In this document: positions 3,994 to 33,682 of the stretch, one piece after another | How positions within the stretch are numbered: the stretch's first letter is position 1 | Layout: each line of letters begins with the position of its first letter | NCBI GenBank assembly: GCA_024640985.1 | Contig: JAHEDY010000002.1 | Location: 23,365 to 87,364 of the forward strand | Source: Gammaproteobacteria bacterium | GTDB taxonomy: Bacteria; Pseudomonadota; Gammaproteobacteria; Pseudomonadales; Litorivicinaceae | Direction of reading: 5' to 3' | Length of the DNA: 64,000 nt | Notes under the pieces: model-generated | Databases searched by the model: none | What the model saw: only the letters and a program-made list of their open reading frames with translations | Told to the model about the DNA's origin: nothing | Made by a program: the position numbers and the translations under genes

Positions 3994-4001
3994 CGTTGTT
4001 T

Positions 4002-4875: not shown

Positions 4876-5343
4876 ATGTACCAATTTGACACATCTTTGG
4901 CGGTTTACACGCTAAAGCAGGCAGAAGCCGTCTTGAATCAATCCAACGCCATGTTTGCAAAGATGATTGACGATTCGCTCGAATTTAATCGTGCGATGTT
5001 AAATCTTGAGTTTGTTGATATGACGCCAACCGACACACTCGCCACCTTATTTCCGTCCGCCACAGCCAGTGGCGCGAAAAAAAAATCAGCGAAGCCGCAA
5101 CGTGCACCGCAAGCCAAAGCGATTGCACAGGCGCCGGTTCGTCAGGACGATCTGAAAATGATTTCGGGTGTCGGCCCAGGCCTGGAGAAAAAGCTGCAAG
5201 ATGCGGGCATCGTTTCTTATGCTCAAATCGCAGCATTAACCGATGCAGAAATCACTGAGTTGGAAACAAACGTGATCAAGTTTGCCGGACGCATCAAGCG
5301 TGACGACTGGATTGGTCAGGCAACGCAATTGATGGCGCAGTAA
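4876..5343 (+). CDS. Phasin-like protein with C-terminal helix-hairpin-helix domain
   Basis: 155 residues from the ATG at 4876, which has GTGGAGG 5-6 bases upstream; the longer open frame into the fnr promoter is rejected. Residues 1-60 are helical and resemble the amphipathic N-terminus of phasins. Residues 61-90 are a Lys/Ala/Pro-rich linker. Residues 91-155 form a helix-hairpin-helix module (MISGVGPGLEKKLQDAGI) ending FAGRIKRDDWIGQA, a module seen attached to varied bacterial proteins. Phasins coat polyhydroxyalkanoate granules, and hbdH at 20.7 kb supports such metabolism. The role of the HhH part is unknown. A strong terminator follows. Confidence 0.6.
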   Translation: MYQFDTSLAVYTLKQAEAVLNQSNAMFAKMIDDSLEFNRAMLNLEFVDMTPTDTLATLFPSATASGAKKKSAKPQRAPQAKAIAQAPVRQDDLKMISGVGPGLEKKLQDAGIVSYAQIAALTDAEITELETNVIKFAGRIKRDDWIGQATQLMAQ

Positions 5344-5375
5344 CGCTCAAGTCGCTAATCACAAGTTTAAATTTT

Positions 5376-5400
5376 GCCGGGCATCGCCCGGCTTTTTTTT
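5376..5400 (+). terminator. Rho-independent terminator after the phasin-like gene
   Basis: GCCGGGC (5376-5382), a 3-base loop, then GCCCGGC (5386-5392) followed by eight T. The last two T of the tract are also part of the nhaA stop codon (TTA on the plus strand, 5399-5401), so the convergent gene ends directly at the terminator. Confidence 0.9.
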
Positions 5401-6625
5401 AACGCAATGGTTTCGCACCGAGAATGCAGAAGGAGCGTTCAGGCAATGCTTTCTTCAACACGATAAATCCAACTACTGCAGAAATAATTGAGCCTGTCAG
5501 AATGCCGAGTCGATCTAACCCTGCTAACGGATTGCCCATGCCTCCAAAGGCCAACGATCCAATAAAGAGCGACATGGTAAATCCAATTCCGCAAAGGAAG
5601 GCGACACCGAGCAATTGGCCCCAATTGACATGGCGGGGCATGCTTGCAATGCCAAGCTTAATGATGATGTAGCAGAACAACATCACGCCAATCGGTTTTC
5701 CGATTAAAAGTCCTGCTGCAATACCCAATGGGACAGGATGGCCCAAGATCGATAGACCTTGTTCGCCAATCGCTACACCGGCGTTAGCAAATGCGAAGAG
5801 CGGGAGCACGAGATAACTTGAAAACCCGTGCAGTTCATGTTCTAGCCGAACAACAGGTGATGACTCTTGCTTGGGCAAGGTGTACGGAATGCAAAATCCG
5901 AGCGCGACTCCCGCGAGGGTGGCATGGACACCTGATTTTAGGACAGCAACCCACATGATAAAACCGACAAAAAGATAAGCGGACTTATTACCGACATTGG
6001 AATAATTCATTGCAATCAGGGCCCCGAGTGCCGCAAATGCAATGCCTAACGATCCAACGCTCAGTTGCTCGGTGTAAAAAAGAGCAATGATGATAATTGC
6101 ACCTAAGTCGTCGGCGACCGCCAGCGTTAACAAAAAGACTTTGAGTGGAACCGGGACTCGAGGCCCCAATAAGGCTAAAACGCCAATCGCAAAGGCGATA
6201 TCGGTTGCCGCAGGAATCGCCCAACCTGCGGACGCACCCTCGGTTCCACTGGTCACGATTAAATACACGATAGCCGGTGCTGCCATGCCTCCCACAGCGG
6301 CTCCAAGCGGTAGGAACGCTTGGCGGATATCTGACAAATGTCCGACCATTAATTCTCGTTTGATCTCTAATCCGATCAAAAAGAAGAAGATAGCCATTAA
6401 TCCATCGTTGACCCACAGCAGGAAGGGTTTATCAATCACGATAGGGCCGATTCCAAAAACCACTTTCGTGCGAAACACATCCTCGTAGTAGGATGCGAGC
6501 GGCGAATTCATGATCGTCATGGCTAAAACAGCCATAATAACGAGCAAAATTCCGGGTCCGACCTCGGAGTGGAGAATCGATTGAAGCTTTTTAATGGGCC
6601 CTAAACTTTGATTTGGAGATTCCAT
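5399..6625 (-). CDS. nhaA: Na+/H+ antiporter NhaA
   Basis: 408 residues with about 12 membrane segments. The paired aspartates in LAVADDLGAI (D172, D173) are the sodium/proton-binding pair of NhaA; TDIAFAIG (D142) and GLEIKREL are also family motifs. It exchanges internal Na+ for external H+ and matters for salt and alkaline pH tolerance, fitting a marine habitat. The ATG at 6625 is chosen with AAGGAG about 12 bases upstream; a TTG at 6634 lies only 3 bases after that site and is less likely. It converges on the terminator after the phasin-like gene. Confidence 0.96.
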   Translation of the reverse strand: MESPNQSLGPIKKLQSILHSEVGPGILLVIMAVLAMTIMNSPLASYYEDVFRTKVVFGIGPIVIDKPFLLWVNDGLMAIFFFLIGLEIKRELMVGHLSDIRQAFLPLGAAVGGMAAPAIVYLIVTSGTEGASAGWAIPAATDIAFAIGVLALLGPRVPVPLKVFLLTLAVADDLGAIIIIALFYTEQLSVGSLGIAFAALGALIAMNYSNVGNKSAYLFVGFIMWVAVLKSGVHATLAGVALGFCIPYTLPKQESSPVVRLEHELHGFSSYLVLPLFAFANAGVAIGEQGLSILGHPVPLGIAAGLLIGKPIGVMLFCYIIIKLGIASMPRHVNWGQLLGVAFLCGIGFTMSLFIGSLAFGGMGNPLAGLDRLGILTGSIISAVVGFIVLKKALPERSFCILGAKPLR

Positions 6626-6680
6626 GTGCGTCAATGTCTCCTTATAAACGCAATTTTCTAGTTATGAGTGCACAAAATTT

Positions 6681-7643
6681 ATGCGCGTATTAAGTGTGAA
6701 TAATGCGAAGGCTGAGGCCGAATGGCAAGAGTTGCCTTCGCCTAAGGTCGAAAAAGGTGAAATTCGAATTCAGGTGGAGGCGGCTGGATTAAACCGAGCT
6801 GATCTCCTGCAGATCAAAGGTCTATACCCAGGAAAGGTCGATAACCCGATACTCGGACTCGAATGTTCCGGCATCATCGACCAAGTTGGTGAGGGGATCG
6901 ATGAAGCTTGGCTCGGTCGGAAAGTGTGCGCGCTTCTTCGCGGTGGTGGAATTGCGGATTATGTCGTGTGTTCGCCATCGGTCGTCGTTTCAGCGCCTAG
7001 CGGCATCGAGTTGTCGCTGGCCGCTGGACTCTGTGAAACCTGGTGTACGGCATTATTCAATCTCTGGGACCAGGCAAAATTGGTTCCGAAAGAACGTGTG
7101 TTGATCCATGCCGGAGCGTCGGGTGTTGGGGTTGCGGCCATTCAGTTGGCGCGTCTTCTGGGTGCAACGCCGTTCATCACCTGTGGATCTGAAAAGAAAC
7201 TTCAATATTGCTTGGATCGAGGTGCGGAAGCTGGAGTGTTGCGAACGCAAGACTGGGCCGCTTATTTCCGTGGGCTTGGACTTCAATTCGATGTGATCCT
7301 TGATCCAGTCGGCGCCGGTTATCTGAACAAAGATCTGAGTGTCGCAGGCAATGCCGCGAGAATCGCGGTGATTGGGTTACTCGGCGGAATTCAGACCGAA
7401 TGCAATCTTGTCGAATTTTTATCGAAAAACATCACCCTGTTTGGGCGGACGTTGAGAACACAGCCAGACTCCGTAAAACGGCGGTTACTCGCTGAGTTAG
7501 AGACCATTGTTTGGCCAGCGGTTGCGCGACACAAAGTGCATCATGGTGTGGAGCAAATTGTGATGCCCGATGAAGTGCTAGAAGCGTACCAGACGATGCA
7601 GCAAGGCGATCAGTTCGGCAAAACCATTGTTTTGATGAGATGA
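6681..7643 (+). CDS. NAD(P)H quinone oxidoreductase, PIG3/QOR type
   Basis: 320 residues, medium-chain dehydrogenase/reductase fold without zinc cysteines. Visible are the N-terminal GroES-like domain (AAGLNRADLLQIKGLYP), the hinge CETWCTALFNL and the Rossmann motif HAGASGVGVAAIQLA. Family members reduce quinones or other carbonyl compounds with NADPH. Divergent from nhaA and followed after 7 bases by glutathione reductase, so both may belong to one oxidative-stress operon. The exact substrate cannot be read from sequence. Confidence 0.88.
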   Translation: MRVLSVNNAKAEAEWQELPSPKVEKGEIRIQVEAAGLNRADLLQIKGLYPGKVDNPILGLECSGIIDQVGEGIDEAWLGRKVCALLRGGGIADYVVCSPSVVVSAPSGIELSLAAGLCETWCTALFNLWDQAKLVPKERVLIHAGASGVGVAAIQLARLLGATPFITCGSEKKLQYCLDRGAEAGVLRTQDWAAYFRGLGLQFDVILDPVGAGYLNKDLSVAGNAARIAVIGLLGGIQTECNLVEFLSKNITLFGRTLRTQPDSVKRRLLAELETIVWPAVARHKVHHGVEQIVMPDEVLEAYQTMQQGDQFGKTIVLMR

Positions 7644-7650
7644 GGAAGTG

Positions 7651-9018
7651 ATGAGTCAGTATGATCTAGTTGTCATTGGCGCGGGGAGTGGGGGCGTTCG
7701 GGCAGCCCGCATGGCGGCAAGCTTTGGGGCCAAAGTGGCTGTCATTGAAGATCGTTATCTTGGTGGAACCTGTGTCAACGTGGGATGTGTTCCAAAGAAA
7801 CTCTATGTGTTTGGTTCTGGGTTCTCTGAGACGATTGAGGATGCTCAAGGCTATGGTTGGAATGTCACCAATCATGGGTTTGACTGGCCAAGGCTTAGAG
7901 ACAATAAAATCCAGGAAATCAAGCGTTTAAATGGAATTTATGATCGATTACTTAAGGGATCTGGTGCTGAGTTAATTGATGGTCGTGGAACCATTGTTGA
8001 CGCCAACACGGTTCGTGTCGGCCATCGAGTATTGCACACGCAACGCATCTTAATCGCAACTGGCGGATGGCCGCGTCAACCGGAGATGCCTGGGATCGGG
8101 TTGACCAAGACCAGTAATGAGATCTTCGATCTCAAGGAGTTACCCAAGCGAATTTTGATTGTGGGTGGCGGATATATCGCCGTTGAATTTGCTGGAATAT
8201 TCGCTGGTATGGGCGTGCAGACAACTTTGTCTTATCGAGGGCCAAATTTACTGAAGGAATTTGACCGTGAAATCGTCAATCAGTTGCTGGAAGAAATGAA
8301 AGCCAAAGGCGTTGATGTGCGGCTTGACCATCGACTTTTCGGCTTTGAATCGATCGCTGAGGGCATCCGAGTCAACCACTCAGGACATGACGGTGACGAA
8401 TTGATTGTCGACGATGTCCTGATGGCGGTCGGGCGTGTGCCGAATACCATGGGATTGGGCCTCGAGAACACGCAAGTGACGACCCGAGACGATGGCACGA
8501 TTGAGGTATTTGAGAATTTTCAGACAAAAGAGCCGTCCATTTACGCGGTTGGCGATGTGACAGGAACGGTCGCCTTAACTCCTGTTGCACTCGCTGAAGG
8601 GATGGCGCTCGCAAGACATCTGTTTGCGGGAGATGCCTCAGCAGCAGTGGATTATGCATTGATCCCAACGACGATTTTTAGCCAGCCAAACATTGGCACA
8701 ATTGGCTTATCGGAAGAGGCTGTGATTGAAAGCGGACGGAAAGCAAAAGTCTTCGTCAGTCGATTTAAGCCAATGAAACACACGCTTAGTGGGCGTCTTG
8801 AACAAAGTATCTTCAAGCTGATTGTGGATGACGATACAGATCAGATCTTAGGCCTACATCTTTTGGCTCCGGACGCGGGTGAGATCCTACAAGGATTCGG
8901 GGTCGCCCTAAAAGCAGGTGCCACCAAGGAGGATTTTGATCGGACCATCGGCATTCATCCAACAGCTGCTGAGGAGTTCGTGACCATGAGAGAGCCAACA
9001 CGGGTCATTGGTGAATAA
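7651..9018 (+). CDS. gorA: Glutathione-disulfide reductase
   Basis: 455 residues with the layout of class I pyridine nucleotide-disulfide reductases. FAD motif GAGSGGVRAAR is near the start, the redox-active disulfide is in GGTCVNVGCVPKK (C41, C46), a second nucleotide site is VGGGYIAVEFAGIFAGMG, and the C-terminal interface carries HPTAAEE. It regenerates glutathione from GSSG using NADPH. The ATG at 7651, with GAGGA 5 bases upstream, is preferred over the GTG one codon earlier. Its end overlaps the SelD fusion by 8-11 bases, suggesting translational coupling and a possible role in reducing selenite-glutathione adducts. Confidence 0.94.
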   Translation: MSQYDLVVIGAGSGGVRAARMAASFGAKVAVIEDRYLGGTCVNVGCVPKKLYVFGSGFSETIEDAQGYGWNVTNHGFDWPRLRDNKIQEIKRLNGIYDRLLKGSGAELIDGRGTIVDANTVRVGHRVLHTQRILIATGGWPRQPEMPGIGLTKTSNEIFDLKELPKRILIVGGGYIAVEFAGIFAGMGVQTTLSYRGPNLLKEFDREIVNQLLEEMKAKGVDVRLDHRLFGFESIAEGIRVNHSGHDGDELIVDDVLMAVGRVPNTMGLGLENTQVTTRDDGTIEVFENFQTKEPSIYAVGDVTGTVALTPVALAEGMALARHLFAGDASAAVDYALIPTTIFSQPNIGTIGLSEEAVIESGRKAKVFVSRFKPMKHTLSGRLEQSIFKLIVDDDTDQILGLHLLAPDAGEILQGFGVALKAGATKEDFDRTIGIHPTAAEEFVTMREPTRVIGE

Positions 9019-11092
9019 CACCTCTCAAAATGCCGCCCAGGTTCTGGTCCTCGTCGGGGCCGGACACGCGAATATCGCATTGATTCGGCGCTTTGCGATG
9101 GAGCCTTTGGTCGGAACTCGACTGGTGGTTGTGAATCCGTATTCGGTGACACCATATTCTGGAATGTTGCCTGGCTTTTTATCTGGGCAATATAGGGAAG
9201 ACGAGCTCTTTATCGACATTGCCCGTTTGTGCAAACAAGCCGGTGCACGGTTCATTCGTGGTTCTCTCACCAAAGTGGACACAGGTCTACGCCAACTGAC
9301 CATCCGACATCAAGTGAGATTCAATCAGACAGAACTGCAGATCGGTTTTGATGCCTGTGTGTTAAATACGGGTGCTGTCCCTGGTCATGATTTCCCAACG
9401 AAGCATCCACACTATTATCCGGTGAAACCGATTCGAGAGCTCTTGACTGCACTTCCGCAGATTGATCAGCAAATGTCGCCTGATGGAGCATCCATGGTTG
9501 TTGTGGGTGGCGGAGCTGGTGGGATCGAGCTAGCTTTTGCTTTCCGAACTCGGTTTGGAAATGCCGCCCGTGTGACTCTGATCTCAAAGCGTCGCTTTGA
9601 GGCTGATGCTGCGCTTTCTGCTGCAGCGAAATGGATCAGGCGAGTGTTGGTCGATCGAGGTATTACATGCATCGAGGGACAGGCGGTTGTTGAGGCGACT
9701 GAGAATTCGGTTGTGCTCAGTGACGGACGATCGGTCGCGGCTGACGTCATCTGTGCTGCGACACCCGTGCATCCACCAGACTGGATTCTTGACTCAGCAC
9801 TTCCTACCGACCAAGGATTTCTGGCAGTGAATAATTTTCTTCAGGTTCAGAATCAGTCATCGCTATTTGCAGCCGGAGATATCGTATCGCTGGCCTCACC
9901 GAGAGGACGTTCGGGAGTGATGGCTGTGCGGGCCGGTCAATACCTGGCTGATGCGATCTGGAAACGACTGCAAGGCACAACGCCTTATCCCTTCAAGCCA
10001 CAAAAGCGTTGGCTGACTTTATTGAATCTAGGTAACGGTAGTGCAATCGCTACGAAAGGCCGTTTTGCTCTTGAGTCGCCACACCTATTGCGCTTGAAAG
10101 ATCGGATTGATCGGCAATTTATGCAGAGGTTTCAAGGACGATCCATGCAATTTGAGCATGGCATGCGTTGCGAAGGTTGCGCAGCGAAACTTTCTGGCCA
10201 AACACTACAAGCAGTATTTCCTGGAGTCTTTGAGGATGCAGCGATCGAAAATCTTGAAGGTCGGATGCGTGTTCGGTCAATTGATGCTCTCACTTACTTA
10301 GTTAACGATCCCTATGTCATGGGCGCCTTAAGTGTCCGCCATGCGATGAGTGATATTTGGGCGATGGGGGCGCGTCCCACGCAGTGTTTGTCACTCATCG
10401 GGATTCAACGCGCCAACAACGAACCGTTGGAAGCTGATGAATTTCAGCAATGCGTCAGTGGCGTCAAAGACGCATCAAAGCGTTATGAGGTCTCGTTGGC
10501 AGGAGGGCATAGCTTGGCACTCGAGCAACCTTTGGTTGCGATCTCAATCGAAGGCGAAGCTGATCGGTTGATTCCCAAGCAAGGTGCGCGTCCTGGCGAT
10601 GAAGTGTGGTTGACGGGGCCAATTGGTTCGGGAGTCTTGTTTGCCGCCGAAGCAGCTGGCGAACCCGTCGGTCAAGCGATTGATCGATGGCTTCACCAGG
10701 CTTTGGAGTCACTGTTTGCGGCGAGCCAGGCAGCATCTGCGTTAGGTGTTCATGCGATGACGGATGTGACAGGCTTTGGTCTTGCCGGGCACCTGAAAGA
10801 AATGCTGGATGGGAGTGGATGTGGTCTGAGCTGGGCCGACAACATAGAAATGTTCGAAGGGGTGTCGATCGCTTTGGCCCGTGGGATTCGCTCATCAGCA
10901 CATCACGAGAATCAAATCTATGCAGGAAAATTCGGTGACAGTGCGCCTAGTTCAGTTGTTTTTGATCCACAAACCTGCGGGCCATTAATGGTGGCCGTGT
11001 GTCCGACAAAAGCGTCAACATTGATCAATCAATGGACGACACTGGGACTCAGTCCACAACGAATCGGAAGCATTACCACCGAAACGTCGTAA
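9008..11092 (+). CDS. selD: NADH dehydrogenase-like/selenophosphate synthetase fusion
   Basis: 694 residues in two parts. Residues 1 to about 375 form an FAD/NADH two-dinucleotide-binding flavoprotein related to NDH-2 (VLVGAGHANIALI; VVVGGGAGGIELA; LFAAGDIV). From about 380 the SelD domain begins; C388-E-G-C391-A-A-K394 holds the equivalents of E. coli C17 and K20, so it is a cysteine form. SelD makes selenophosphate from selenide and ATP. Such fusions are known in cyanobacteria and proteobacteria; the flavoprotein is thought to supply reduced selenium, but this is unproven. The start is TTG 9008 or GTG 9011, inside the end of gorA. selU lies downstream on the other strand. Confidence 0.93.
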   Translation: MVNNTSQNAAQVLVLVGAGHANIALIRRFAMEPLVGTRLVVVNPYSVTPYSGMLPGFLSGQYREDELFIDIARLCKQAGARFIRGSLTKVDTGLRQLTIRHQVRFNQTELQIGFDACVLNTGAVPGHDFPTKHPHYYPVKPIRELLTALPQIDQQMSPDGASMVVVGGGAGGIELAFAFRTRFGNAARVTLISKRRFEADAALSAAAKWIRRVLVDRGITCIEGQAVVEATENSVVLSDGRSVAADVICAATPVHPPDWILDSALPTDQGFLAVNNFLQVQNQSSLFAAGDIVSLASPRGRSGVMAVRAGQYLADAIWKRLQGTTPYPFKPQKRWLTLLNLGNGSAIATKGRFALESPHLLRLKDRIDRQFMQRFQGRSMQFEHGMRCEGCAAKLSGQTLQAVFPGVFEDAAIENLEGRMRVRSIDALTYLVNDPYVMGALSVRHAMSDIWAMGARPTQCLSLIGIQRANNEPLEADEFQQCVSGVKDASKRYEVSLAGGHSLALEQPLVAISIEGEADRLIPKQGARPGDEVWLTGPIGSGVLFAAEAAGEPVGQAIDRWLHQALESLFAASQAASALGVHAMTDVTGFGLAGHLKEMLDGSGCGLSWADNIEMFEGVSIALARGIRSSAHHENQIYAGKFGDSAPSSVVFDPQTCGPLMVAVCPTKASTLINQWTTLGLSPQRIGSITTETS

Positions 11093-22700: not shown

Positions 22701-24308
22701 TTGAACGACCAATTATCAACCCTATCAAGACAATGGAATCAATCACTTAGAACGCTTTTTGAGCGCGACTCCGATCGTGGCTCGAGATACGTTGCCAAAG
22801 GCGCTGGACTCCGACTGGATTATTCGAAGCATTGGGTCGACGATGCGGTGCTTGAGGCGCTTCTTCGGCTGCTTGACGAGTGCCATTTTTCGGCTCAACG
22901 CGCGAAGCTATTTTCCGGTGAGCGGATCAACTCCACCGAGAATCGTGCCGTGTTGCATGCGGCACTGCGGGCTCAATCGACTGATGAGTATGGGATTGAT
23001 GGCCAATCGGTGATGGCTGAAGTCTTTCAGGCGAGAGGGGATACGTATGCCTTTGCTGAGGATATCCGCGAAGGACGAGTGTTGGGATCGACCGGCGAGA
23101 CCTTGACTGATGTAGTGAATATCGGGATCGGAGGCTCTGATTTAGGCCCGCTCATGGTGAGTGAGGCTTTAAAACCCCTGATTGATGGGCCGCGACCCCA
23201 CTATGTCTCGAACGTCGATGGCGCCCATTTGCATGATGTACTCGCATCGTTGAATCCAGCCACTACGTTGATTTTAGTCGCATCGAAAACCTTTACGACG
23301 CAAGAAACGATGCACAACGCGATGAAGGCGAAGCGATGGATTACAGAGGCTTTGGGTGATCAGGCGGTGAGTCATCACTTTGCTGCGCTGTCGACAAACG
23401 CCGAGGCTGTTGCCGCATTTGGCATTTCAGAGTCGCGGATGTTCGGGTTCTGGGACTGGGTCGGTGGTCGATATTCGGTGTGGTCAAGTATTGGTTTATC
23501 GCTTGTCATCGCGCTTGGACCTGAGGTGTTTGGGCGATTCCTAGACGGTGCTCGGGCAATGGATCAGCACTTTCAAAAAGCGCCTGCGAAAGACAATATT
23601 CCGGTTCTGATGGCGCTACTCGGTATTTGGTATCGCAATGGGTTTGGTCTCGAGACCTTGGCTGTCCTTCCTTATGAACAACGACTTCATCGTTTTGCCG
23701 CGTACTTACAACAAATGGAGATGGAGTCGAACGGCAAGCGAGTGGATCGGGAGGGGGCTCCCGTCAACTACGATACTTGCCCGGTGATTTGGGGGGAGCC
23801 AGGGACCAATGGTCAACATGCATTTTTTCAATTGCTTCACCAAGGAACACTCATCTGTCCTGCCGACTTCATCTTAACCGCCAATCCGACCAATACCGAT
23901 GCTGAATCCCATGCGCTGTTGAATGCCAATTGCCTTGCCCAAGCTGAGTCCTTGGCATTTGGAAAGACAGAGGATGCTGTATATCGAGAAATGATCGAAC
24001 ACGGACAGTCTGAATCAGAAGCCCTGCGTTTAGCCCCGCATCGCACGTTTCCGGGAAACCGACCCTCGTCCTTGATCATGATGGATGCTCTGACTCCCGA
24101 AAACTTAGGAGCTCTGATTGCCGCTTATGAACATAAGGTTTTCACGCAGGGCGTGATCTGGAACATTAATTCTTATGACCAGTGGGGTGTTGAGCTCGGT
24201 AAGGCTCAGTGCAACGCATTGCGCCCAAGCTTTGATTCAGGTGATGCATCAGCATTCTCGACCTCCACGCAAGAGACATTGAAATGGCTACTCAGTCAAA
24301 AACCTTAA
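22701..24308 (+). CDS. pgi: Glucose-6-phosphate isomerase
   Basis: 535 residues. The family signatures are present: [44 protein letters not shown], and [18 protein letters not shown] with the catalytic histidine; the C-terminal VELGKAQ holds the active lysine. It interconverts glucose-6-phosphate and fructose-6-phosphate. The start is TTG at 22701. The 3' end overlaps the next gene by 25 bases. Confidence 0.96.
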
Positions 24309-24547
24309 CAGTAGATGAAGTCAGTCGAGTGATTGAGATGGCGTGGGAGGATCGGACGCCATTTGAAGCCATTGAGTCAAGTTTTGGATTGAATGAGGCT
24401 CAAGTGATCGACCTGATGCGGCGTGAGATGAAAATCTCGAGTTTTAAGATGTGGCGCGCACGGGTATCTGGACGCAAGACCAAGCATTTGGCTCGACGTG
24501 GCTTTGCGGTCGGTCGTCATGTTTGTCCGACTCAGCGCAATCGGTAA
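24284..24547 (+). CDS. TIGR03643-type small basic protein
   Basis: 87 residues. [55 protein letters not shown] is typical of the TIGR03643/DUF2805 family. Members look like a small helix-turn-helix protein with a basic tail, but no function has been established. It overlaps the pgi 3' end by 25 bases in another frame. RNA or DNA binding is only inferred from the fold and charge. Confidence 0.85.
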
Positions 24548-24639: not shown

Positions 24640-25590
24640 ATGACTGTATGGAAATCATTACTGGGGGCATCAGCCTTTGTGATTGGGTCGATCGCTCAGG
24701 CTTCAACGTTGGAACCTGTGATCGATAGTTTTCGACTTGCGGATTTGCTGGAGTCTCAGCAAGTCAAAGTGCTTGAGATTCGCAGTGAAGAAAAAGCGTA
24801 TCTGGCTAGCCACATTCCGGGCTCTGTCTATATTCCTTACGGTGAATTCCGCGGACCAAAAACGAACCCTGGAAAACTTCCTGAGCTGAAACAACTGGCG
24901 AAGTCTCTTGGATCTCGAGGCATTGATACATTGGATTCGGTTGTCATCGTGCATGATGGTGTGACCACAACCGATTTCGGAGCCGCCGCTCGCGTTTACT
25001 GGACGTTGAAGAGCGTCGGTTTTGAATCCCTTGCGATCTTAAATGGTGGTTTTCGGGGATATCAAAAAGACGGATTTGAGTTGGCGTCGGGGTGGACGGC
25101 AGTAGAACCTGCCAATCCTCAACTGGTCTTTAACGCGACCTGGTACGCGGATACGACTGAAGTTGCGAAACAAGTTGCAGGGCAGGGCAATGCGAAACTC
25201 TTAGATGCGCGCCTCGACGCCTTTTATGCCGGTAAGGCATGGCACGACGCAGCTGCACGTCCGGGAATTTTGCCGGGTGCTGAACAGTTCGCTTTCGAGG
25301 CATTCTTCGATAAGAATACGCCGTTGTTAAAGCATGCCAACGAAGTGCAATCAATTGTGACTAGCCAACAACTCAACCAGCCGGGCACGATTTCCTATTG
25401 CAATACCGGTCATTGGGCCGCAACCAACTGGTTTGTCTTGAGCGAAGTGGCGAAGGTTCCAGATGTTAAGCTCTATGCAGAATCGATGGTTGAATGGTCG
25501 GCATTGAACAAACCCATGGAAAATGTACCGACTTCAGTCCAGTTTGCGATCTTGAAGACGAAAAAATGGTTTGGCAATTTGGTGAATTAA
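24640..25590 (+). CDS. Periplasmic tandem-rhodanese sulfurtransferase
   Basis: 316 residues. A signal peptide (about 1-21, cut after IAQA) is followed by two rhodanese domains. The first (about 30-150) has HIPGSVYIPYGEF but D106 in VIVHDGVTT where the active cysteine would be. The second (about 165-300) has C254 in SYCNTGHWA and is probably the active one. Such thiosulfate sulfurtransferases move sulfane sulfur. The gene precedes a YeeE-type transporter by 3 bases, suggesting they handle thiosulfate or persulfide together at the membrane. Confidence 0.88.
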   Translation: MTVWKSLLGASAFVIGSIAQASTLEPVIDSFRLADLLESQQVKVLEIRSEEKAYLASHIPGSVYIPYGEFRGPKTNPGKLPELKQLAKSLGSRGIDTLDSVVIVHDGVTTTDFGAAARVYWTLKSVGFESLAILNGGFRGYQKDGFELASGWTAVEPANPQLVFNATWYADTTEVAKQVAGQGNAKLLDARLDAFYAGKAWHDAAARPGILPGAEQFAFEAFFDKNTPLLKHANEVQSIVTSQQLNQPGTISYCNTGHWAATNWFVLSEVAKVPDVKLYAESMVEWSALNKPMENVPTSVQFAILKTKKWFGNLVN

Positions 25591-25593
25591 TTT

Positions 25594-26688
25594 TTGGTTA
25601 TACGAACACTTCTGATTGTTGGTCTCCTTTCAACGCTCGCTGTTTCAGCGGGCGTTCGTTTTTCTCTCCTGTTAGGCCTTGGACTACTGATCGGCTTCAG
25701 TCTTGAGCGAATGGGCTTTGGTTTTGCAGGTCCGTGGCGTCGGTTAATTCGAGATCGCAATGCCCAGGGAATGATGGCACAACTGCTGGCGATTGGTCTG
25801 ACAGCGATCGTGATTCAACCCATTATTGCTGATGCGCCAGGGTCATTTTTAGGGGCAATTGCTCCGGTATCAGTCACTATGGTGATGGCGGCCTTTGTGT
25901 TCGGCCTTTCCATGCAAATGATCTTGGGTTGTGGGTCCGGAACGCTAATCAATGCAGGTTCAGGGAATGTGATTGCTTTGGTCGCACTTCCGTTATTTTG
26001 TCTCGGAAGCTTTTTAGGGACCTTGCTGGTGCCAATCGCAATCGAGTCAACACCACATATTCCGGTGAGTTTGCCTGCATTGTTTGGCGTCAAGGGAAGT
26101 GTCGGCGTCACTGTAATCGGGCTCGTTGCGGTCGGGTTGGTTGCCTCTCGATATAGCCAAGCTCCGTTATGGAATCGACGGCTTTTGACCGCTGCTGTCA
26201 TTTTAGCAGGGCTTGCGATCCTTCATGTTCTCGTTGCCGGGCAGCCCTGGGGCGTGGTTTATGGGTTAGGTCTTTGGGTTGCAAAAGCAGCACAAGGGTT
26301 CGGCTGGGATCCCGCGACCGCAGCTTTTTGGACGCACCCAATCAATGTCGCGGCACTGGAAAGTTCGATTTTGACCGATACAACCTCGCTGACCAGTCTC
26401 GGGTTAGTCGGTGGTGCGGCCTTGGCTGCCTGGAAAGAGTCAACGAATCGTCCGCTCGGACAATCCGTTGCCTTGTGGTTTTATCTGGTTGCGGCGCTTT
26501 TTGGTCTATTGCTGGGAGTTTCGTCAAGGCTTGCTTTTGGCTGTAATGTCGGCGCGCTATTCAGCGGCATTGCATCTGGCTCATTGCATGGTTGGGCGTG
26601 GTTATTAGCGGGTTTCATTGGCAGTATCGTGGGCGTTCGATTACGAGATCAACTCTGGTCGCTTGCACAAACGAGTCGGCAGTCATGA
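25594..26688 (+). CDS. YeeE/YedE (TsuA)-family sulfur-compound transporter
   Basis: 364 residues with about 9-11 hydrophobic helices in two related halves. Each half carries a conserved cysteine: C113 in LGCGSGTLINAG and C317 in FGCNVGALFSGI, as in the thiosulfate transporter YeeE/TsuA, which passes thiosulfate along cysteines. It starts at TTG 25594, three bases after the rhodanese stop, and its stop overlaps a 58-codon gene by ATGA. Import of thiosulfate or a related sulfur compound is likely; direction and substrate are inferred. Confidence 0.87.
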   Translation: MVIRTLLIVGLLSTLAVSAGVRFSLLLGLGLLIGFSLERMGFGFAGPWRRLIRDRNAQGMMAQLLAIGLTAIVIQPIIADAPGSFLGAIAPVSVTMVMAAFVFGLSMQMILGCGSGTLINAGSGNVIALVALPLFCLGSFLGTLLVPIAIESTPHIPVSLPALFGVKGSVGVTVIGLVAVGLVASRYSQAPLWNRRLLTAAVILAGLAILHVLVAGQPWGVVYGLGLWVAKAAQGFGWDPATAAFWTHPINVAALESSILTDTTSLTSLGLVGGAALAAWKESTNRPLGQSVALWFYLVAALFGLLLGVSSRLAFGCNVGALFSGIASGSLHGWAWLLAGFIGSIVGVRLRDQLWSLAQTSRQS

Positions 26689-26861
26689 CTCGGCGATTCG
26701 GAATCATCGTGGCACTGCTCGGTGCCTTAGGGGTGGTCGTTATTGACTGGACGCTTGGCGTCCCACCTGATCCATTTCGAGCTCCAGATCCCATGGCATT
26801 CGGTTCGACATCTGGCGCGTCTGGTGCGATTTGCACCTTTGCCCCTGGAGCTCAGGAATGA
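26685..26861 (+). CDS. Small hypothetical exported or membrane-anchored protein (58 aa)
   Basis: 58 residues from the ATG at 26685. It is not recognised. Residues 1-20 (MTRRFGIIVALLGALGVVVI) look like a signal anchor or signal peptide; the rest is Pro/Gly/Ser-rich with one cysteine (FGSTSGASGAICTFAPGAQE). Its start overlaps the yeeE stop (ATGA) and its stop overlaps the methyltransferase start (ATGA). Such exact coupling on both sides argues it is a real gene. It may assist the transporter, but nothing in the sequence proves this. Confidence 0.6.
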   Translation: MTRRFGIIVALLGALGVVVIDWTLGVPPDPFRAPDPMAFGSTSGASGAICTFAPGAQE

Positions 26862-27325
26862 AGCACGTTTTTATCACGTCTAACTTTGGCCCGATTCGTC
26901 TTGATTTTGATGGAGAGAGCTTGTTGCGCGTGACACAGGTCAGCCGAAAAGGAGCGAGCGATATCATCGATCCAGACCTCCTGAATCCTGTCATTCAATG
27001 TATCAATGGCGAACGTGATGGACTTGGAATCCCTGTGAGGTTTGAAGGGACTCCCTTCCAAATCAAAGTTTGGGAAGCGATGCGACAGATTCCCCCTGGT
27101 GAAGTGTTGAGCTATTCCGAGTTAGCGAAGCGAGCGGGCAATATGAGAGCGACGCGCGCGGTCGCATCAGCTTGCGGACATAATCCTTGCGCAATTGTTG
27201 TTCCTTGTCATCGAGTCGTAAGGCGAGACCACGGTCTAGGTGGGTTCTTCTGGGGCCTCAATGTCAAAAAAACATTACTCACGCGAGAGGGAATCAGAAT
27301 TAACGCCGATGGCTACATTGTCTAG
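26858..27325 (+). CDS. Methylated-DNA-protein cysteine methyltransferase
   Basis: 155 residues from the ATG at 26858. The C-terminal half has the signature IVVPCHRVV with acceptor cysteine C117, the winged-helix stretch YSELAKRAGNMRATRAVASA with the arginine finger, and GLGGFFWGLNVKKTLLTREG. It removes O6-alkyl groups from guanine by suicide transfer. The open frame upstream is rejected because the ATG overlaps the preceding stop. It is the last gene of the rhodanese-yeeE series; its 3' end overlaps the convergent cbb-linked gene by 4 bases. Confidence 0.94.
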   Translation: MKHVFITSNFGPIRLDFDGESLLRVTQVSRKGASDIIDPDLLNPVIQCINGERDGLGIPVRFEGTPFQIKVWEAMRQIPPGEVLSYSELAKRAGNMRATRAVASACGHNPCAIVVPCHRVVRRDHGLGGFFWGLNVKKTLLTREGIRINADGYIV

Positions 27326-27627
27326 TCTGATTTGAGCTCGTCTTCACCGCTCCATCCGGCCGCCTTTGCACGCTTGACGGCTTCTCCATGGATGCGCAAG
27401 AAGCGTTCTTGTAGGTCAGCAGGCAGAGCCCCCACGCGATACCCATAGGGCTGCCAAGCTTTTTCTGTTTGGTCCCATAATTGCTCAATTCCTTGAGAAA
27501 GCCAGCCTTCACAGGTTTCCGATTCATCGATGATGCCAAAAATCTGAGCATCCCGAATGATTTTTCCAGTGGCCGTCATTCCACCATTGATGTCGTTTTG
27601 AATGCCAACATATCGCTTTTCGCTCAT
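27322..27627 (-). CDS. Conserved hypothetical protein, fifth gene of the cbb operon
   Basis: 101 residues, no function recognised. It begins MSEKRYVGIQNDINGGMTAT and contains DAQIFGIIDESETCEGW; the C-terminus is helical (ERFLRIHGEAVKRAKAAGW). No signal peptide or membrane helix. It starts 8 bases after cbbO, and its ribosome-binding site AGGAC overlaps the cbbO stop, so translation is likely coupled. The position suggests a role with RuBisCO or its activase, but similar proteins may also occur elsewhere. Confidence 0.75.
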   Translation of the reverse strand: MSEKRYVGIQNDINGGMTATGKIIRDAQIFGIIDESETCEGWLSQGIEQLWDQTEKAWQPYGYRVGALPADLQERFLRIHGEAVKRAKAAGWSGEDELKSD

Positions 27628-27635
27628 AGAATGTC

Positions 27636-29978
27636 CTAGCTGGTTAGACTTGCAAAGAGTGTCGGAAGTTGTTCAGGAAGTCGATTCACGTGATCGAGAA
27701 TCATGTAATTATTTTGCCCAAAAATCCGCTTCACATATTGATCAGCGTGCGGATCGAGGGTTAAGCAGTAGGTGAACACTCCCTGTGTTGCTAACTCATC
27801 GACCGCTTTTTTTGCATCATGTCGAAGGTGTTGAGGATCACGCTCATCGACATCGGCAGGAGCGCCATCAGTGACTAATAAGATCAGCTTTCTTTTTTCT
27901 GGTTGTTTCAAAAGCCCGCGAGCAGCATGTCGCAAGGCAGCACCCATGCGTGTCGATAAGCCACCCTGCATCCCATCAAGGCGGGCTTTCGCCTCTTCGT
28001 CGAAGCGTTGGTTAAACTGTTTGAATGTGCAGTAACGGACATCATGGCGTCCATCTGATGCAAATCCGGCGATTGAGAAAGGATCTCCGATGCCCTGAAT
28101 TGCCGTTGCAACCAGTGTTGCTGCCTCTTTAGTGAGATCTAAGACGGTTTGCTCTGTGCCATCAACGAAATCGTTGGTGCTTTCTGATAGGTCAAGGAGT
28201 ACGGTCACAGATAGGTCGCGTGAATGGATTTGATTTCGCATCGTGATTCTAGGGTCTGGCTGTTGACCCATGCGAATTGCAACCAATGCGTCGATCGCAG
28301 CATTTAAATCGATTTCTTCACCATCTTCCATGTGCCGGATTCGCTGCACTCCAGAAGGACTTAACAAATCAATGATCTGGCGGATCCGATTTGCAACGGG
28401 TTTGTATTTCAACAGGATTTGATCAATCACAGCGGGATCGCCTCGGGTCGCTCGGCGTTCATACAATGTCACCCAGTCAGGTCGAAACAACTGAACTTGG
28501 TAATCCCATTCTCGATAATGATAAGGTGCTGAGATAGGCTCTTTTCCCCACATCGCATTAAAACTGACGGTGGCCTCTCCAGCATCCTCATAGGGCATGA
28601 ATTCATCCCGGCAAACCCAGATCTCCTGAGCATCGTCCCCTGCAAGCTCGCAATCAACTTCATGTGCCATTTCAAGAACGGAGACATATTTCCGAACCTG
28701 GCGTTGTGATGCAGGGATGTACTCGGCGCCATGCCTGGCCCAGTCAAAAGCTTCAAATTCCCACATAAAACGATTGTCATCACGATAAGGAATGCGAATC
28801 GTATTTAAAACCCTGAGGCTTGGTACGTCCTGCGTCGACGCAAAATACTGATAGATCCGCAACCCTAAATCCCTAGAAATTGAATTCGTTAGAGGGTTTT
28901 TCACAACCAGAAGGTGGAATTGCTCGACGATCTGGTCGAGTTCTGATGTGCCAGTTTTCATGGCCGGATCATTGAGAGAGATGGCAACTTTCTCGAGTGC
29001 CTCGACGGTTGTGTGTTCCAGGGAGTGGTTATGGTTTAGCTGGAGTAAAGAACCCCACAGTTTCCGTAACCCAGGGAACTCTTGAATTGCATTCCATTCA
29101 ACTCGGGCATCTTCAACTAGACCGATAAAAAACAGATGTGCCTGAGACAGTTGTTCAGCAGGCAGTACCTCGAGCGTGTAATGGATATGCGCTGCTTGAT
29201 GAGCTGCCATCGCTCGGTAGATGTCGTAACCACTGACGTCTCCGAGATCGTCGAGCGCGTCAGGTAAATGCATCACGTAATGTTCAAGATAAGGTCTGAA
29301 ACCTTCGTAATCAGCAGCTGTTGGGCGAAGAAAAAAGTCTCTTCCCCATAATGCGCGAAGATAAAAGTTAATTTTCCTCTGCGAATCAACAAATAAGGTG
29401 CCGCGACGCTCTTGGGCTAGCATGGTTTGCGAGTCAGCAGTTTCGAGCGAGAAATATCGGGTTAGATTCGGAAGATCTTTCCGATACGCCTCGGCACCGT
29501 AATTGGCCCAACGCTTCAATCCGGAGAGCGTAAGTTTGGAGAGTAATTCATCAATGTGCGTCAGCATCGGGCGCAATCCTCGAGCGGCCTTCGCTGAGAG
29601 CTGATGGATCAAGGCCAGATAACCTTTTAAGAGTTCAGGGTCTCCTAATCGCCTCGCGGCTGTTGGCAATGATGAAAAGAGAAGGGTAATCACTTCACCA
29701 CTGGTCATCGAAGCGAGTTTCATTGCGGCGCCAAGGCAATCTCGTAAGCTGTCTTCACCACACTCTTTCACAACATCTGGCATATGCTCAAGCCAGGCGA
29801 GCGACAAATCATAGCCTCGTCCAAGCTGTACGAGACCTCTTGCACCCTCCGCATAATCAGAGAGTCCTTGTGAGGAAAGCGATCGCGCGGCTTCGTGAAA
29901 ACACGCCTCGAAGGTTTGACAAAATCCTTCAGGAGCATCTTGAAAGCTATCGAGATAGTGGTCGAGATTGACACTCAT
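27636..29978 (-). CDS. cbbO: RuBisCO activase component CbbO (VWA protein)
   Basis: 780 residues. A long helical N-terminal part is followed by a C-terminal von Willebrand factor A domain with the metal-binding motif LLDLSESTN (D596, S598, S600) and LVTDGAPADVDE. CbbO binds RuBisCO through its VWA metal site and, with the CbbQ hexamer, pulls inhibitory sugar phosphates off the enzyme. Length matches known CbbO. It is 9 bases after cbbQ. The related NorD lacks this context, so CbbO is preferred. Confidence 0.93.
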   Translation of the reverse strand: MSVNLDHYLDSFQDAPEGFCQTFEACFHEAARSLSSQGLSDYAEGARGLVQLGRGYDLSLAWLEHMPDVVKECGEDSLRDCLGAAMKLASMTSGEVITLLFSSLPTAARRLGDPELLKGYLALIHQLSAKAARGLRPMLTHIDELLSKLTLSGLKRWANYGAEAYRKDLPNLTRYFSLETADSQTMLAQERRGTLFVDSQRKINFYLRALWGRDFFLRPTAADYEGFRPYLEHYVMHLPDALDDLGDVSGYDIYRAMAAHQAAHIHYTLEVLPAEQLSQAHLFFIGLVEDARVEWNAIQEFPGLRKLWGSLLQLNHNHSLEHTTVEALEKVAISLNDPAMKTGTSELDQIVEQFHLLVVKNPLTNSISRDLGLRIYQYFASTQDVPSLRVLNTIRIPYRDDNRFMWEFEAFDWARHGAEYIPASQRQVRKYVSVLEMAHEVDCELAGDDAQEIWVCRDEFMPYEDAGEATVSFNAMWGKEPISAPYHYREWDYQVQLFRPDWVTLYERRATRGDPAVIDQILLKYKPVANRIRQIIDLLSPSGVQRIRHMEDGEEIDLNAAIDALVAIRMGQQPDPRITMRNQIHSRDLSVTVLLDLSESTNDFVDGTEQTVLDLTKEAATLVATAIQGIGDPFSIAGFASDGRHDVRYCTFKQFNQRFDEEAKARLDGMQGGLSTRMGAALRHAARGLLKQPEKRKLILLVTDGAPADVDERDPQHLRHDAKKAVDELATQGVFTYCLTLDPHADQYVKRIFGQNNYMILDHVNRLPEQLPTLFASLTS

Positions 29979-29987
29979 AAGATCGCC

Positions 29988-30797
29988 CTAGGTGAAGAAT
30001 GTCTCCACAGCCGCTTCGAGTGTCTGACGCATATCTGGATCATCGGTTAGCGGTGTAACGAGTGTCATCTGACAGGCTAACTTAGCGTCAATCCCTTCGT
30101 TGATCATCTGTGCAGCATAGACGAGAAGTCGTGTCGAGATGCCCTCATCCAACCCGTGACCCTTGAGATTTCGCGTCCGGTGCGCGATTTGAACCAGTTT
30201 CTGCGCGACACTCGAATCCACGCCGGCTTCCTGGGCAACGATTTGCGCTTCCGCGTCGTCCGTCGGGTAATCAAAATCCATGGCCGCAAAGCGTTGTTTT
30301 GTAGATTGCTTCAAATCCTTCATCAATGACTGATAACCAGGATTGTATGAAATCACCAATTGAAAGTCAGGATGGGCTTCAACGAGCTCTCCCTTCTTAT
30401 CCAGTGGCAGTTGTCTACGGTGGTCTGTGAGAGGATGAATGACAACTGTCGTATCTTGACGCGCTTCAACAATTTCATCGAGATAACAGATTGCTCCAAT
30501 TCGCGCCGCGGTGGTTAGCGGTCCGTCGTGCCAGTGCGTTCCGTCTTGATCCAGCAGAAATCGACCGACAAGATCGGACGCGGTCATGTCTTCGTTACAG
30601 GCGACGGTAATCAAAGGGCGTCCTAATTTCCACGCCATATACTCAACGAACCGTGACTTACCACATCCCGTTGGCCCTTTGAGCATAACAGGCATGCGGC
30701 GCGCGTAGGCGGCTTCGTAAAGAATGTCTTCACCTGAGGTGACTTGATAGAAGGGTTCTTGTGCGATGCGATATTGATCAGTCGATTCCTGACTCAT
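29988..30797 (-). CDS. cbbQ: RuBisCO activase ATPase CbbQ (MoxR-type AAA+)
   Basis: 269 residues from the ATG at 30797, which has GGGAG 7 bases upstream; the longer frame to 30818 enters the intergenic hairpin. Walker A GPTGCGKS (41-48), Walker [10 protein letters not shown] (D107, E108), and [21 protein letters not shown] with sensor and arginine-finger residues. CbbQ forms a hexameric ring driving RuBisCO remodelling with CbbO. It lies downstream of cbbS, separated by a small hairpin that could set its lower expression. Confidence 0.95.
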
Positions 30798-30848: not shown

Positions 30849-31205
30849 TCAAACCGGATTGCCGCGATAAACAACCATTTCAGCGCCTTTCGATTGCGCA
30901 TAGTTGTCATAGCCGACTAAGCGGACATGATTGTTTGGATGGGCTTTATGACAGGCGTCAGCCTCACCTAAAATCCGATCCACATCCGACTCACCAAACA
31001 TCGGGAGTTTCCACATATACCAGTAATGATGCATCGCATTTTCTGGCTCTGTGTGCTCAATCGCTGGATTCCAGCCTTGAGAGACAATGTATTCCACTTG
31101 CTTACGAATACGCTCAGCATCCATTTCAGGCAAATACGAGAAAGTCTCAAATTTGCGGCTTGTCACGTCTGAGAGAGACGATTTGTAATCTTGAATAGCG
31201 CTCAT
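30849..31205 (-). CDS. cbbS: RuBisCO small subunit
   Basis: 118 residues. [35 protein letters not shown] and the C-terminal VRLVGYDN are form I small-subunit motifs. Eight copies cap the L8 core. The gene follows cbbL by 21 bases. With cbbQO directly downstream and no carboxysome genes, it fits the form IA type found free in the cytoplasm (IAq). Confidence 0.97.
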
Positions 31206-31226: not shown

Positions 31227-32657
31227 TCAACGGTGCTGAACATCAAGCTTGTCGACAGTATCGAACTCAAACTTAATTTCTTTCCATGTTTCCATCGCGG
31301 TTGCAAGCTCAGGACTCGACTTGGCGGCTTCCTGAAGGATTTCCTTACCTTCCTTTTCTAGTTCGCGACCCTGGTTCCGCGCCTCAACACAGGCTTCCAG
31401 AGCGACGCGGTTCGCTGCAGCACCAGCGGCATTGCCCCACGGATGTCCCAGAGTCCCTCCGCCGAACTGGAGAACCGCATCATCACCAAAGATGGTGACC
31501 AAGGCAGGCATGTGCCACACATGGATGCCACCAGAGGCAACGGCCAACCCGCCAGGCATTGCACCCCAGTCTTGATCAAAGAAAATCCCACGAGAACGAT
31601 CTTCTTTGACGTAACTTTCTCGTAATAGGTCAATCCACCCCAAAGTGGAGGCCCGATCACCTTCCAATTTGCCGACGACCGTTCCTGTGTGTAGATGGTC
31701 GCCTCCTGAGAGACGTAACATTTTGGTTAATACCCGGAAGTGGATCCCATGATTTGGATTTCGGTCAAGGACAGCATGCATTGCTCGGTGAATATGAAGC
31801 AGCATGCCATTATCGCGACACCAATTCGCCAAACCAGTATTGGCTGTGAAACCGCCGGTTAAGTAGTCATGCATGATGATTGGCGCGCCGATTTCTTTGG
31901 CATATTCCGCACGCTTATACATTTCTTCAGGTGTTGGTGCGGTAACGTTGAGGTAGTGCCCCTTGCGCTCGCCAGTTTCAACTTCTGCTTTATTGATCGC
32001 TTCCATCACAAAGTCAAAGCGTTGACGCCAGCGCATGAAGGGTTGCGAATTCACGTTTTCATCGTCTTTGGTAAAATCGAGACCTCCTCGCAGACACTCA
32101 TAGACCGCACGTCCGTAGTTTTTCCCCGATAAACCAAGCTTTGGCTTGATGGTACAGCCGAGGAGGGGGCGGCCATATTTGTTCATGAGGTCGCGCTCGA
32201 CTTGGATACCGTGTGGTGGGCCGCCACAGGTCATGACGTAGGCGATTGGGATTCGAACGTCTTCTAGGCGTAACGCTCGGACTGCCTTAAATCCAAACAC
32301 ATTACCGACCAGCGAGGTCAATACGTTCACCACAGACCCTTCCTCAAACAGATCAATTGGGTATGCGATGAAGGCATAATAGGCATCGTCGCTTCCTGGC
32401 ACATCTTCGATCGCGTAAGCGCGCCCTTTATAGTGATCAAGATCTGTGAGTAGATCCGTCCATACAGTGGTCCAAGTTCCTGTGGAGCTCTCAGCCGCTA
32501 CTGCGGCTGCAGCTTCCTCGCGAGGAACGCCTTCCTGAGGAGTGATTTTAAAGCACGCCAGGAAATCTGTATCTTTCGGCACATACTCCGGCATCCAATA
32601 CGTCTCGCGGTATTCTTTAACACCCGCGCTGTAGCTTTTCCCTTGATCTTTTGACAT
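31227..32657 (-). CDS. cbbL: RuBisCO large subunit, form IA
   Basis: 476 residues. Active-site features are intact: [13 protein letters not shown] (K171, K173), [11 protein letters not shown] with the carbamylated lysine K197 and its metal-binding D/E, the mobile loop 6 ([10 protein letters not shown]), and [10 protein letters not shown]. It fixes CO2 onto ribulose-1,5-bisphosphate. The N-terminal stretch [11 protein letters not shown] is typical of proteobacterial form IA. AAGGA precedes the ATG by 6 bases. First gene of cbbL-S-Q-O-X, divergent from its regulator cbbR. Confidence 0.98.
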
Positions 32658-32705
32658 TTTTTATCCTTTTCCTTGGCTGAAAGAATGCAGTGGAGATTAG
32701 GTCAG

Positions 32706-32734
32706 TTGATCGATCAGTAAAAATAGATTATTTA
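32706..32734 (+). promoter_or_regulatory. cbbL/cbbR divergent control region
   Basis: The 101 bases between the two starts hold a perfect palindrome TGATCGATCA (32707-32716). It overlaps a plausible cbbR promoter, TTGATC (32706-32711), 17 bases, TATTTA (32729-32734). A/T-rich dyads follow (TTTATATGCAATATATA). CbbR, a LysR-type protein, usually binds such T-N11-A sites here and activates cbbL; the exact site is inferred. Confidence 0.5.
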
Positions 32735-32758
32735 TATGCAATATATAGAGAAATACTT

Positions 32759-33682
32759 ATGCATAAGATCTATCTTCCAACGATTCAGCAAATGAAGTTG
32801 TTCGAAGCAGTCGCTCGACTTCGGTCCGTCACTCGCGCAGCAGAGGAGGTAAGCCTGACACAGCCATCGGTCTCCATGCAGGTTAAGGCACTCGAAGAAA
32901 AAATTGGAATGCCATTAATCGACCAGATCGGAAAGAATTTATTTTTAACTCGGGCAGGGGAAGAGGTTGCAAACACGTCGCGAGAAATTCTTGATCGCCT
33001 TGACGTGATGAAAACGAATCTGGCAAGTGTGAATAATGAGATTGCAGGTTCCTTAAATCTTGCGGTCGTTACCACCACCAAATATTTTTTGCCGCAACGT
33101 ATCGGTGAATTCAAGCGGCGTTATCCAGGGGTTGAGCCCCGCGTTAACATGGGTAATCGAGAGCAAATTATGCAGCGCCTCGCCAATAATCTTGACGATG
33201 TCTACATTATGGGCACTCCACCGGATCAAAAAGTATTAGCCTATGCTCCGATTTCAACGAACGAAATTGTGTTTGTTGCTCATCCTTACCATCCATTGGC
33301 CGCACTGCCATCGATGACGCTCGATCAACTCCTGTCTGCGGATATCATTAGCCGTGAGAGGGGTTCAGGGACCCGTCAGGCGATCGAAAGACGGTTTGCC
33401 GAAAACGGGTTGCAGTTGAACCCATTGATGGAATTTGAAGATAGTGAGGCGATTAAGCTTGCGGCAATTTCCGGTTTGGGTATTGCTTATCTACCCATTC
33501 AGTCGATGCGACTTGAACTCGCCGCACGAGAGCTTGTGATATTAAATGTGCAAGGATTTCCGTTAAAAAGACAGTGGTATGCGATGCACCACCGGGCAAA
33601 GCACCTCTCTCGCGTGGCTGAACGTTTCCTTGAGTTTCTTCAGGAACCCGATGCCGATAAAATCATTCACGACTCGCTTTAA
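32759..33682 (+). CDS. cbbR: LysR-type regulator CbbR
   Basis: 307 residues from the ATG at 32759; upstream in-frame codons lie in the promoter region. The N-terminal winged helix-turn-helix (LFEAVARLRSVTRAAEEVSLTQPSVSMQVKALEEKIG) and the effector domain (RERGSGTRQAIERRF, SGLGIAYLP) agree with CbbR. CbbR senses metabolites such as RuBP or NADPH and controls the cbb operon. It is divergent from cbbL, the standard arrangement. Its 3' end overlaps the convergent DNA glycosylase gene by 20 bases. Confidence 0.95.
   Translation: MHKIYLPTIQQMKLFEAVARLRSVTRAAEEVSLTQPSVSMQVKALEEKIGMPLIDQIGKNLFLTRAGEEVANTSREILDRLDVMKTNLASVNNEIAGSLNLAVVTTTKYFLPQRIGEFKRRYPGVEPRVNMGNREQIMQRLANNLDDVYIMGTPPDQKVLAYAPISTNEIVFVAHPYHPLAALPSMTLDQLLSADIISRERGSGTRQAIERRFAENGLQLNPLMEFEDSEAIKLAAISGLGIAYLPIQSMRLELAARELVILNVQGFPLKRQWYAMHHRAKHLSRVAERFLEFLQEPDADKIIHDSL

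Follow-up and report, generated by a model that had tools for sequence, protein, structure and literature searches.

A conserved small gene associated with form I RuBisCO operons encodes a probable RuBisCO helper of an apparently undescribed family

What is the function of the small gene that closes the RuBisCO operon at this locus? The window, by which we mean the whole analysed stretch of 64,000 nucleotides, belongs to a genome of 1.63 Mb (G000) and carries a cbb operon on its minus strand. The operon comprises cbbL (31227..32657; form I RuBisCO large subunit, matching PF00016 at 4.0e-141 and PF02788), cbbS (30849..31205; small subunit, PF00101), cbbQ (29988..30797; a MoxR-type AAA+ protein with CbbQ_C and AAA_5, the ATG at 30797 being taken as start although the longest ORF begins at 30818) and cbbO (27636..29978; 780 aa with a C-terminal VWA domain, matched over long stretches by other form-I genomes at 46-83% identity). 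A divergent, cbbR-like gene for a LysR-type regulator lies on the plus strand (32690..33682; longest ORF, start approximate). An earlier note on this DNA had reported an ORF of 101 residues at 27322-27627, without naming its strand, and had proposed it as a fifth gene of the operon. This ORF, here given the working name gene N, was found to be an open frame of 101 codons running from 27627 to 27322 on the minus strand, and its product is predicted to be mainly helical with an acidic C-terminal end; in the same register, the plus strand of 27322-27627 is interrupted by stops. The ATG of N begins at 27627 and cbbO ends at 27636, leaving 8 bases between them, and the ribosome-binding site placed by the earlier note on the cbbO stop codon can be read from the sequence: on the minus strand the junction runs ...AGCTAGGACATTCTATG..., in which a Shine-Dalgarno-like AGGA (27634..27637) overlaps the TAG stop (27636-27638), 6 nt before the ATG. 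At its other end, the stop codon of N (27322-27324) overlaps tail to tail with that of a convergent O6-alkylguanine alkyltransferase-like gene on the plus strand (26831..27325), which is outside the operon. Further along the plus strand, a DUF2805 gene (24284-24547) is followed by rhodanese and sulphur-transport (PF04143) genes (24640-26688).

A scan of genome contigs revealed 61 loci that encode relatives of N, and an alignment of 60 rows contains 12 invariant columns. The N-terminal half is very conserved (Y6, G8, GGMT, RDA, F30, E35, E37 and ETCEGW). In a wider set of 73 rows, made up of the 60 family rows, a Nitrobacter protein and 12 further copies, with one degenerate copy left out, Y6, G8, E35, G41, W42, W58, P69, G91 and W92 do not vary, and in 68 rows the final eight residues carry a net acidity of 3 or more. 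Between two congeners dN is 0.0126 against a dS of 0.439, a ratio that applies to this pair only, since two pairs including the window gave no dS estimate. With 61 loci encoding relatives, 12 invariant columns and a dN far below dS, N is a real and conserved gene rather than a chance reading frame. A tree of the family has many open forks, so that only its broad split (100/98) is usable; this separates 17 rows from 56, and the smaller clade unites the loci in which N follows cbbO, the window included, with some solitary loci.

As the earlier note had held, the protein contains no recognised domain. The best E values of the window protein, 0.052 in Pfam and 0.18 in NCBIfam, are far below cut-off, and those of the 60 alignment rows (0.011 and 0.039, respectively) are scattered over unrelated models. 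Among the Pfam and NCBIfam profiles, those of RbcX, Raf1, acRAF, CP12 and the RuBisCO small subunit gave no match above cut-off. The AAA+ ATPase module that marks activases of the CbbX/CbbQ type is absent from this 101-aa protein, which matches no AAA model. A resemblance to GpsB over residues of about 40-78 was too weak (E 0.31; in NCBIfam 4 of the 60 rows, best 0.11), and the single PDB profile match below 0.001, to 8fjg (H12; E 1.3e-4), taken to be a designed helical protein, was rejected as a reflection of helical composition. AlphaFold predicts a small helical fold (mean pLDDT 87, pTM 0.76) with main helices at 19-29, 44-61 and 70-89. More than half of the chain is predicted to be helical, and the C-terminal end, of low confidence, is read as a disordered acidic tail. 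Foldseek returned best E values of 1.9 from the PDB and 1.7 from BFVD, and VIA-align against 83 chains gave a Z of at most 2.9, matches so weak that they exclude nothing.

N is found mainly alongside RuBisCO of form-I level. Among 370 Gammaproteobacteria genomes of at least 90% completeness, N was found in 117 and PF00016 in 198. Taking a best PF00016 E value of 1e-130 or better, a cut of our own, as form-I-level RuBisCO, N is present in 107 of 146 form-I-level genomes and in 10 of 224 others (Fisher 4e-47, ignoring phylogeny). It occurs in 5 of 35 genomes with a best E value between 1e-130 and 1e-90, in 3 of 17 with a weaker match and in 2 of 172 with none. In a survey of 299 Pseudomonadota, all 10 genomes with N (two of them also in the class sample) are among the 33 at form-I level. 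Of the 23 remaining form-I-level genomes in this survey, 20 score 2.3e-136 or weaker, and we infer that these are mainly of the red type, form IC. In family f216, that of Mariprofundus, N is present in 7/7 form-I-level genomes and in 0/30 with lower-scoring PF00016 matches only; most of the latter are at form-II level, so that they presumably run a Calvin cycle, and a few are fragments. Thus, 107 of the 117 N genomes in the class survey and 10 of 10 in the phylum survey have form-I-level RuBisCO, and the wide spread through heterotrophs without RuBisCO and without a tie to cbbO, named in the earlier note as the contrary outcome, was not seen.

Gene order points in the same direction. In 44 of the 61 loci, N shares the strand of the cbb genes and has cbbS, cbbQ or cbbO no more than 2 kb away, the distance being about 250 bases or less in 43 of these 44. 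Within 2 kb of N, on one or both sides, 43 of the 44 have cbbQ or cbbO; in the remaining locus (L041) the contig ends behind N. Greedy ORF calling picks shadow ORFs in GC-rich loci. The position of N within these operons varies. The commonest order is S-N-Q, with 33 loci and one more in which N follows cbbS at a contig end, while Q-N-O occurs in two; none of the 44 has N between cbbL and cbbS. N follows cbbO in eight, with gaps of 12-29 bases in six, a gap of 1.4 kb in L009 and a cbbO match of only 39%, and partial, in L013. A place after cbbO is that of a minority, 8/61 loci. In two further loci, cbbO lies on the opposite strand, up to 2 kb away, and 15 have no cbb gene within 2 kb, one of them a relic (G015, below) and some near contig ends. 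Likewise, N is the fifth gene of a cbbLSQO operon in the window but not by any universal rule, since many such operons have no N and other form-I genomes carry it alone. The link of N to RuBisCO and its activase is well supported by these comparisons. Three side observations concern the same loci. In a Ca. Thioglobus genome, a single form I RuBisCO set with N lies between two cbbQ-cbbO pairs (L049:81-3152 and 3858-9407). A second uncharacterised family of about 115-150 aa ('...LYNLWRRA...LAW.DF...LH.PV...YYH...') is found downstream of cbbO, or of N in L009, in N-bearing operons (L020:9624-9977, L044:9519-9923 and 13 further ORFs, 14 loci), two tested members having no Pfam match. A third, similar to the second by eye, occurs near N or cbbO (L045:6307-6783, L016:9699-10157, L040:1833-2291 and four more), and the one member tested has no Pfam match.

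The most probable reading of these data, to which we assign a probability of roughly 45%, is that N encodes an accessory protein dedicated to RuBisCO of the green type (form IA), mostly in systems that use CbbQ/CbbO. More broadly, N is probably a helper of RuBisCO, and it is quite likely that its function lies on the RuBisCO/CbbQO machinery at all. In mechanistic terms, N would bind the RuBisCO large subunit and/or CbbO, a proposal whose odds we put at slightly less than even, and it may help the activase to engage the holoenzyme or help to keep the holoenzyme assembled and activatable. The partners were suggested by distance correlations in the 29 of the 61 loci whose N strand encodes at least 85% of each of the four cbb proteins; L047 and L049 had been removed by hand beforehand. 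The partial r of N was 0.405 with cbbL (1 of 500 permutations as high) and 0.407 with cbbO (0/500), against 0.085 with cbbS (109/500) and 0.073 with cbbQ (145/500), values that could arise from co-inheritance of linked genes as well as from contact and are noisier for the less diverged Q and the short S. These correlations thus point weakly at the large subunit and CbbO. As for the acidic tail, the VWA domain of CbbO carries a MIDAS, and, in the part of the source available, MIDAS contacts are generally mediated through a carboxylate (PMC4660213); for this reason the tail is one conceivable, if speculative, ligand of the CbbO MIDAS. A stronger version, in which N either joins CbbQ and CbbO as a third member of the rubisco-activase machine or connects CbbO to the large subunit as an adaptor specific to form IA, and in which it represents a new family and perhaps a new fold that was gained and lost with CbbQO-type RuBisCO in Gamma-, Zeta- and Alphaproteobacteria, seems to us somewhat unlikely.

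The correlation with cbbL would also suit an assembly chaperone of form IA RuBisCO, similar in action to RbcX, Raf1 or acRAF but unrelated to them, which would act independently of the activase on the newly folded large subunit before or while the small subunits bind. A protein predicted to be small and helical, whose gene lies most often directly after cbbS (33/61) and stands alone in carboxysome genomes, fits such a role. However, the partial correlation with cbbS is negligible, N matches no Pfam model and hence none for RbcX, Raf1 or pterin dehydratase, and E. coli, which presumably lacks N, yielded the A. ferrooxidans form I enzyme as L8S8, as far as the available part of that paper goes (PMC4660213). 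We regard a chaperone of this kind as fairly unlikely.

Gains and losses of N can be followed within the genus of the window and beyond it. RuBisCO was detected in six of the 22 genomes of the genus, some of which are incomplete. Three of them (G000, G001 and G013) combine CbbO with N and lack CsoS2; the other three (G002, G003 and G009), of carboxysome type, show the opposite pattern, with CsoS2 present and both CbbO and N missing. In a seventh genome (G015, 95% complete), no RuBisCO and no CbbO match were found, and a 5'-truncated N stands beside a truncated cbbR-like gene, an arrangement to be expected after one deletion across the operon. The apparent deletion (L004/L012) runs from the cbbR-like gene into the first third of N; cbbLSQO is gone, and the truncated N adjoins the alkyltransferase-like gene. 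A genome of another family (G385; L114, about 7700-8700, contig C13) contains the remains of a cbbO gene, interrupted by stops, and behind them a degenerate N in which two otherwise invariant glycines are changed; the genome also holds a second, intact N elsewhere, and RuBisCO was not found in it. As for transfer, linkage between N and cbb genes extends from Gammaproteobacteria to Mariprofundus and to Marimonas arenosa, an alphaproteobacterium (L007, L009). N is also present in one of 72,556 plasmid records, Nitrobacter hamburgensis X14 plasmid 1, where its product is 41.5% identical and annotated as hypothetical. Among 119 plasmids whose large subunit matches at 1e-50, this plasmid carries the large subunit closest to that of the window (85.3%). 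There N stands some 14 kb away from cbbL and diverges from a gene cluster for a DAB inorganic-carbon transporter (DabA, PF10070). It lies at the border of an island that holds carboxysome genes, an acRAF-type pterin-dehydratase gene, cbbQ and a gene annotated as NorD that by its place is cbbO. Between N and the LysR/cbbL genes (L136:1299-14104), two tandem DAB-type clusters are seen, each with a P-II-like gene. N is absent from the surroundings of close large subunits on a Cereibacter plasmid, with cbbL, S, Q and a VWA gene, and on a Thiodictyon plasmid, where the stretch read contains a carboxysome operon and lacks cbbQO; no viral N was found in IMG/VR by pattern search or in phage records. 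Transfer and loss of N together with the operon are each supported by a few cases. Taken together, co-occurrence, linkage and the plasmid data establish a genetic association of N with form IA RuBisCO genes, the form IA assignment being drawn from score level, cbbQO/cso context and host lineages.

The Nitrobacter island also bears on a regulatory role. CP12 is a small conserved partner of Calvin-cycle enzymes with a conserved redox cysteine pair, and N might similarly act on RuBisCO or the Calvin cycle, as an inhibitor or a receiver of signals, and adjust either to CO2, redox or energy state. N is small and acidic-tailed, its distribution is patchy with many lineages lacking it, its place in the gene order is not fixed, and in Nitrobacter it adjoins DAB transporter and P-II-like genes, all of which would be in keeping with a regulator. 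However, N has one conserved cysteine, C39, kept in 71 of the 73 rows and replaced by glycine in two, and no second conserved cysteine column exists over these rows, which makes a CP12-like disulfide switch unlikely. In contrast to CP12, N thus lacks a conserved cysteine pair, and it is predicted to be helical over more than half its length. As no Pfam match above cut-off is available either, we consider this role improbable.

The association of N with form I RuBisCO has exceptions in both directions. In the class survey, 39 of the 146 form-I-level genomes lack N; CsoS2 is present in 23 of the 39, and 20 of the 39 have a form-I-type CbbO, defined by at least 45% identity over at least 500 residues with pieces of one gene counted together. 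The idea that such operons carry a decayed N was rejected, as 13 loci from 11 of these CbbO genomes, 10 of them with a whole L-S-Q-O, gave no N signal (best E 0.33). Because form-I genomes, some of them with CbbO, do without N, the gene is not required by CbbQO and form IA RuBisCO but is associated with them. Conversely, five complete carboxysome genomes with CsoS2 and a CbbO of 46-49% identity have a solitary N more than 150 kb from the listed form-I RuBisCO. PF00016 is matched in 12 of 18 genomes whose N locus is distant, partial, without linkage or on the opposite strand. The six others include drafts whose contigs may be missing from the collection, and also the genome of L022, represented by a 2.5-Mb record that is titled as a chromosome and contains runs of undetermined bases. 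In the class survey, no PF00016 match was detected in the N genomes G337 and G385.

These solitary copies raise the alternative that N acts elsewhere in autotrophic metabolism, for example in carbon transport or on another Calvin-cycle enzyme, and is merely carried along with form IA operons. Solitary copies without cbb neighbours, intact N in genomes without detected RuBisCO (G385 and that of L022) and the DAB genes next to N on the Nitrobacter plasmid would all agree with this. On the other hand, none of the 30 f216 genomes in which all PF00016 matches score lower, mostly at form-II level, contains N, and neither do the three autotrophs of carboxysome type in the genus of the window; we judge this alternative very improbable. 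That a solitary N marks another conserved partner found no support in a comparison of 27 loci, where any one neighbour within 4.5 kb is shared by three loci at most. Three solitary loci from two families, L107 (about 4265-6339), L112 and L117, share their upstream and downstream genes, which by eye are rRNA methyltransferase-like and frataxin-like, respectively. A general linkage to DabA was also rejected, the DabA-sized neighbours being AcrB (L059) and a thermolysin-like protease (L015), and the other fetched N loci contain no DabA/DabB match at 1e-6, leaving the Nitrobacter plasmid as the one case of DAB linkage.

An accessory protein of form IA RuBisCO can be compared with several known systems. 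Like N, the CbbQ/CbbO activase is encoded in the same operon and linked to form IA RuBisCO; however, CbbQ is an AAA+ protein and CbbO has a VWA domain, and N has neither. RbcX, Raf1 and acRAF are modest-sized RuBisCO helpers encoded near rbc/cbb genes. N shares with them its modest size but no sequence match, and the Nitrobacter island holds a separate acRAF-type gene beside N. A gene named cbbN, the fifth of the Nitrosomonas europaea cbb operon and of unknown function, was reportedly described by Wei et al. in 2004; it resembles N, by description, as an extra gene in a cbbLSQO-type operon. A transcriptome paper of 2020 on N. europaea gives, in its accessible part, four genes, cbbOQSL (PMC6967387). 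The description of acRAF as a RuBisCO helper encoded near rbc/cbb genes is found in the accessible part of PMC12918739. In what is accessible of the A. ferrooxidans work, the form IAq operon is tabulated with only L, S, Q and O (PMC6458275), RuBisCO and activase were produced in E. coli from those genes (PMC4660213), and CbbQ/CbbO were accordingly studied with the proteins of an operon that lists no N. Strings of the cbbN type are used in the literature, as far as the texts could be seen, for the CBB cycle and for genes of cytochrome cbb3, and other occurrences look unrelated by title. A literature search, mostly of freely accessible papers, found no paper naming gene N. RuBisCO helpers are a known kind of protein, within which the N family appears undescribed, judging from Pfam, NCBIfam and the literature searched, with cbbN compared by description only.

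Sulfur-oxidising, iron-oxidising and symbiotic chemoautotrophs use form IA RuBisCO with CbbQO, an enzyme system that is also of engineering interest. Since the N family is absent from Pfam and NCBIfam, annotation pipelines built on them would call its members hypothetical. A conserved partner gene left out of in-vitro work, as the accessible parts of those studies indicate, could matter for the native yield, stability or activation of the enzyme, and pointing it out makes its role testable with one small gene.
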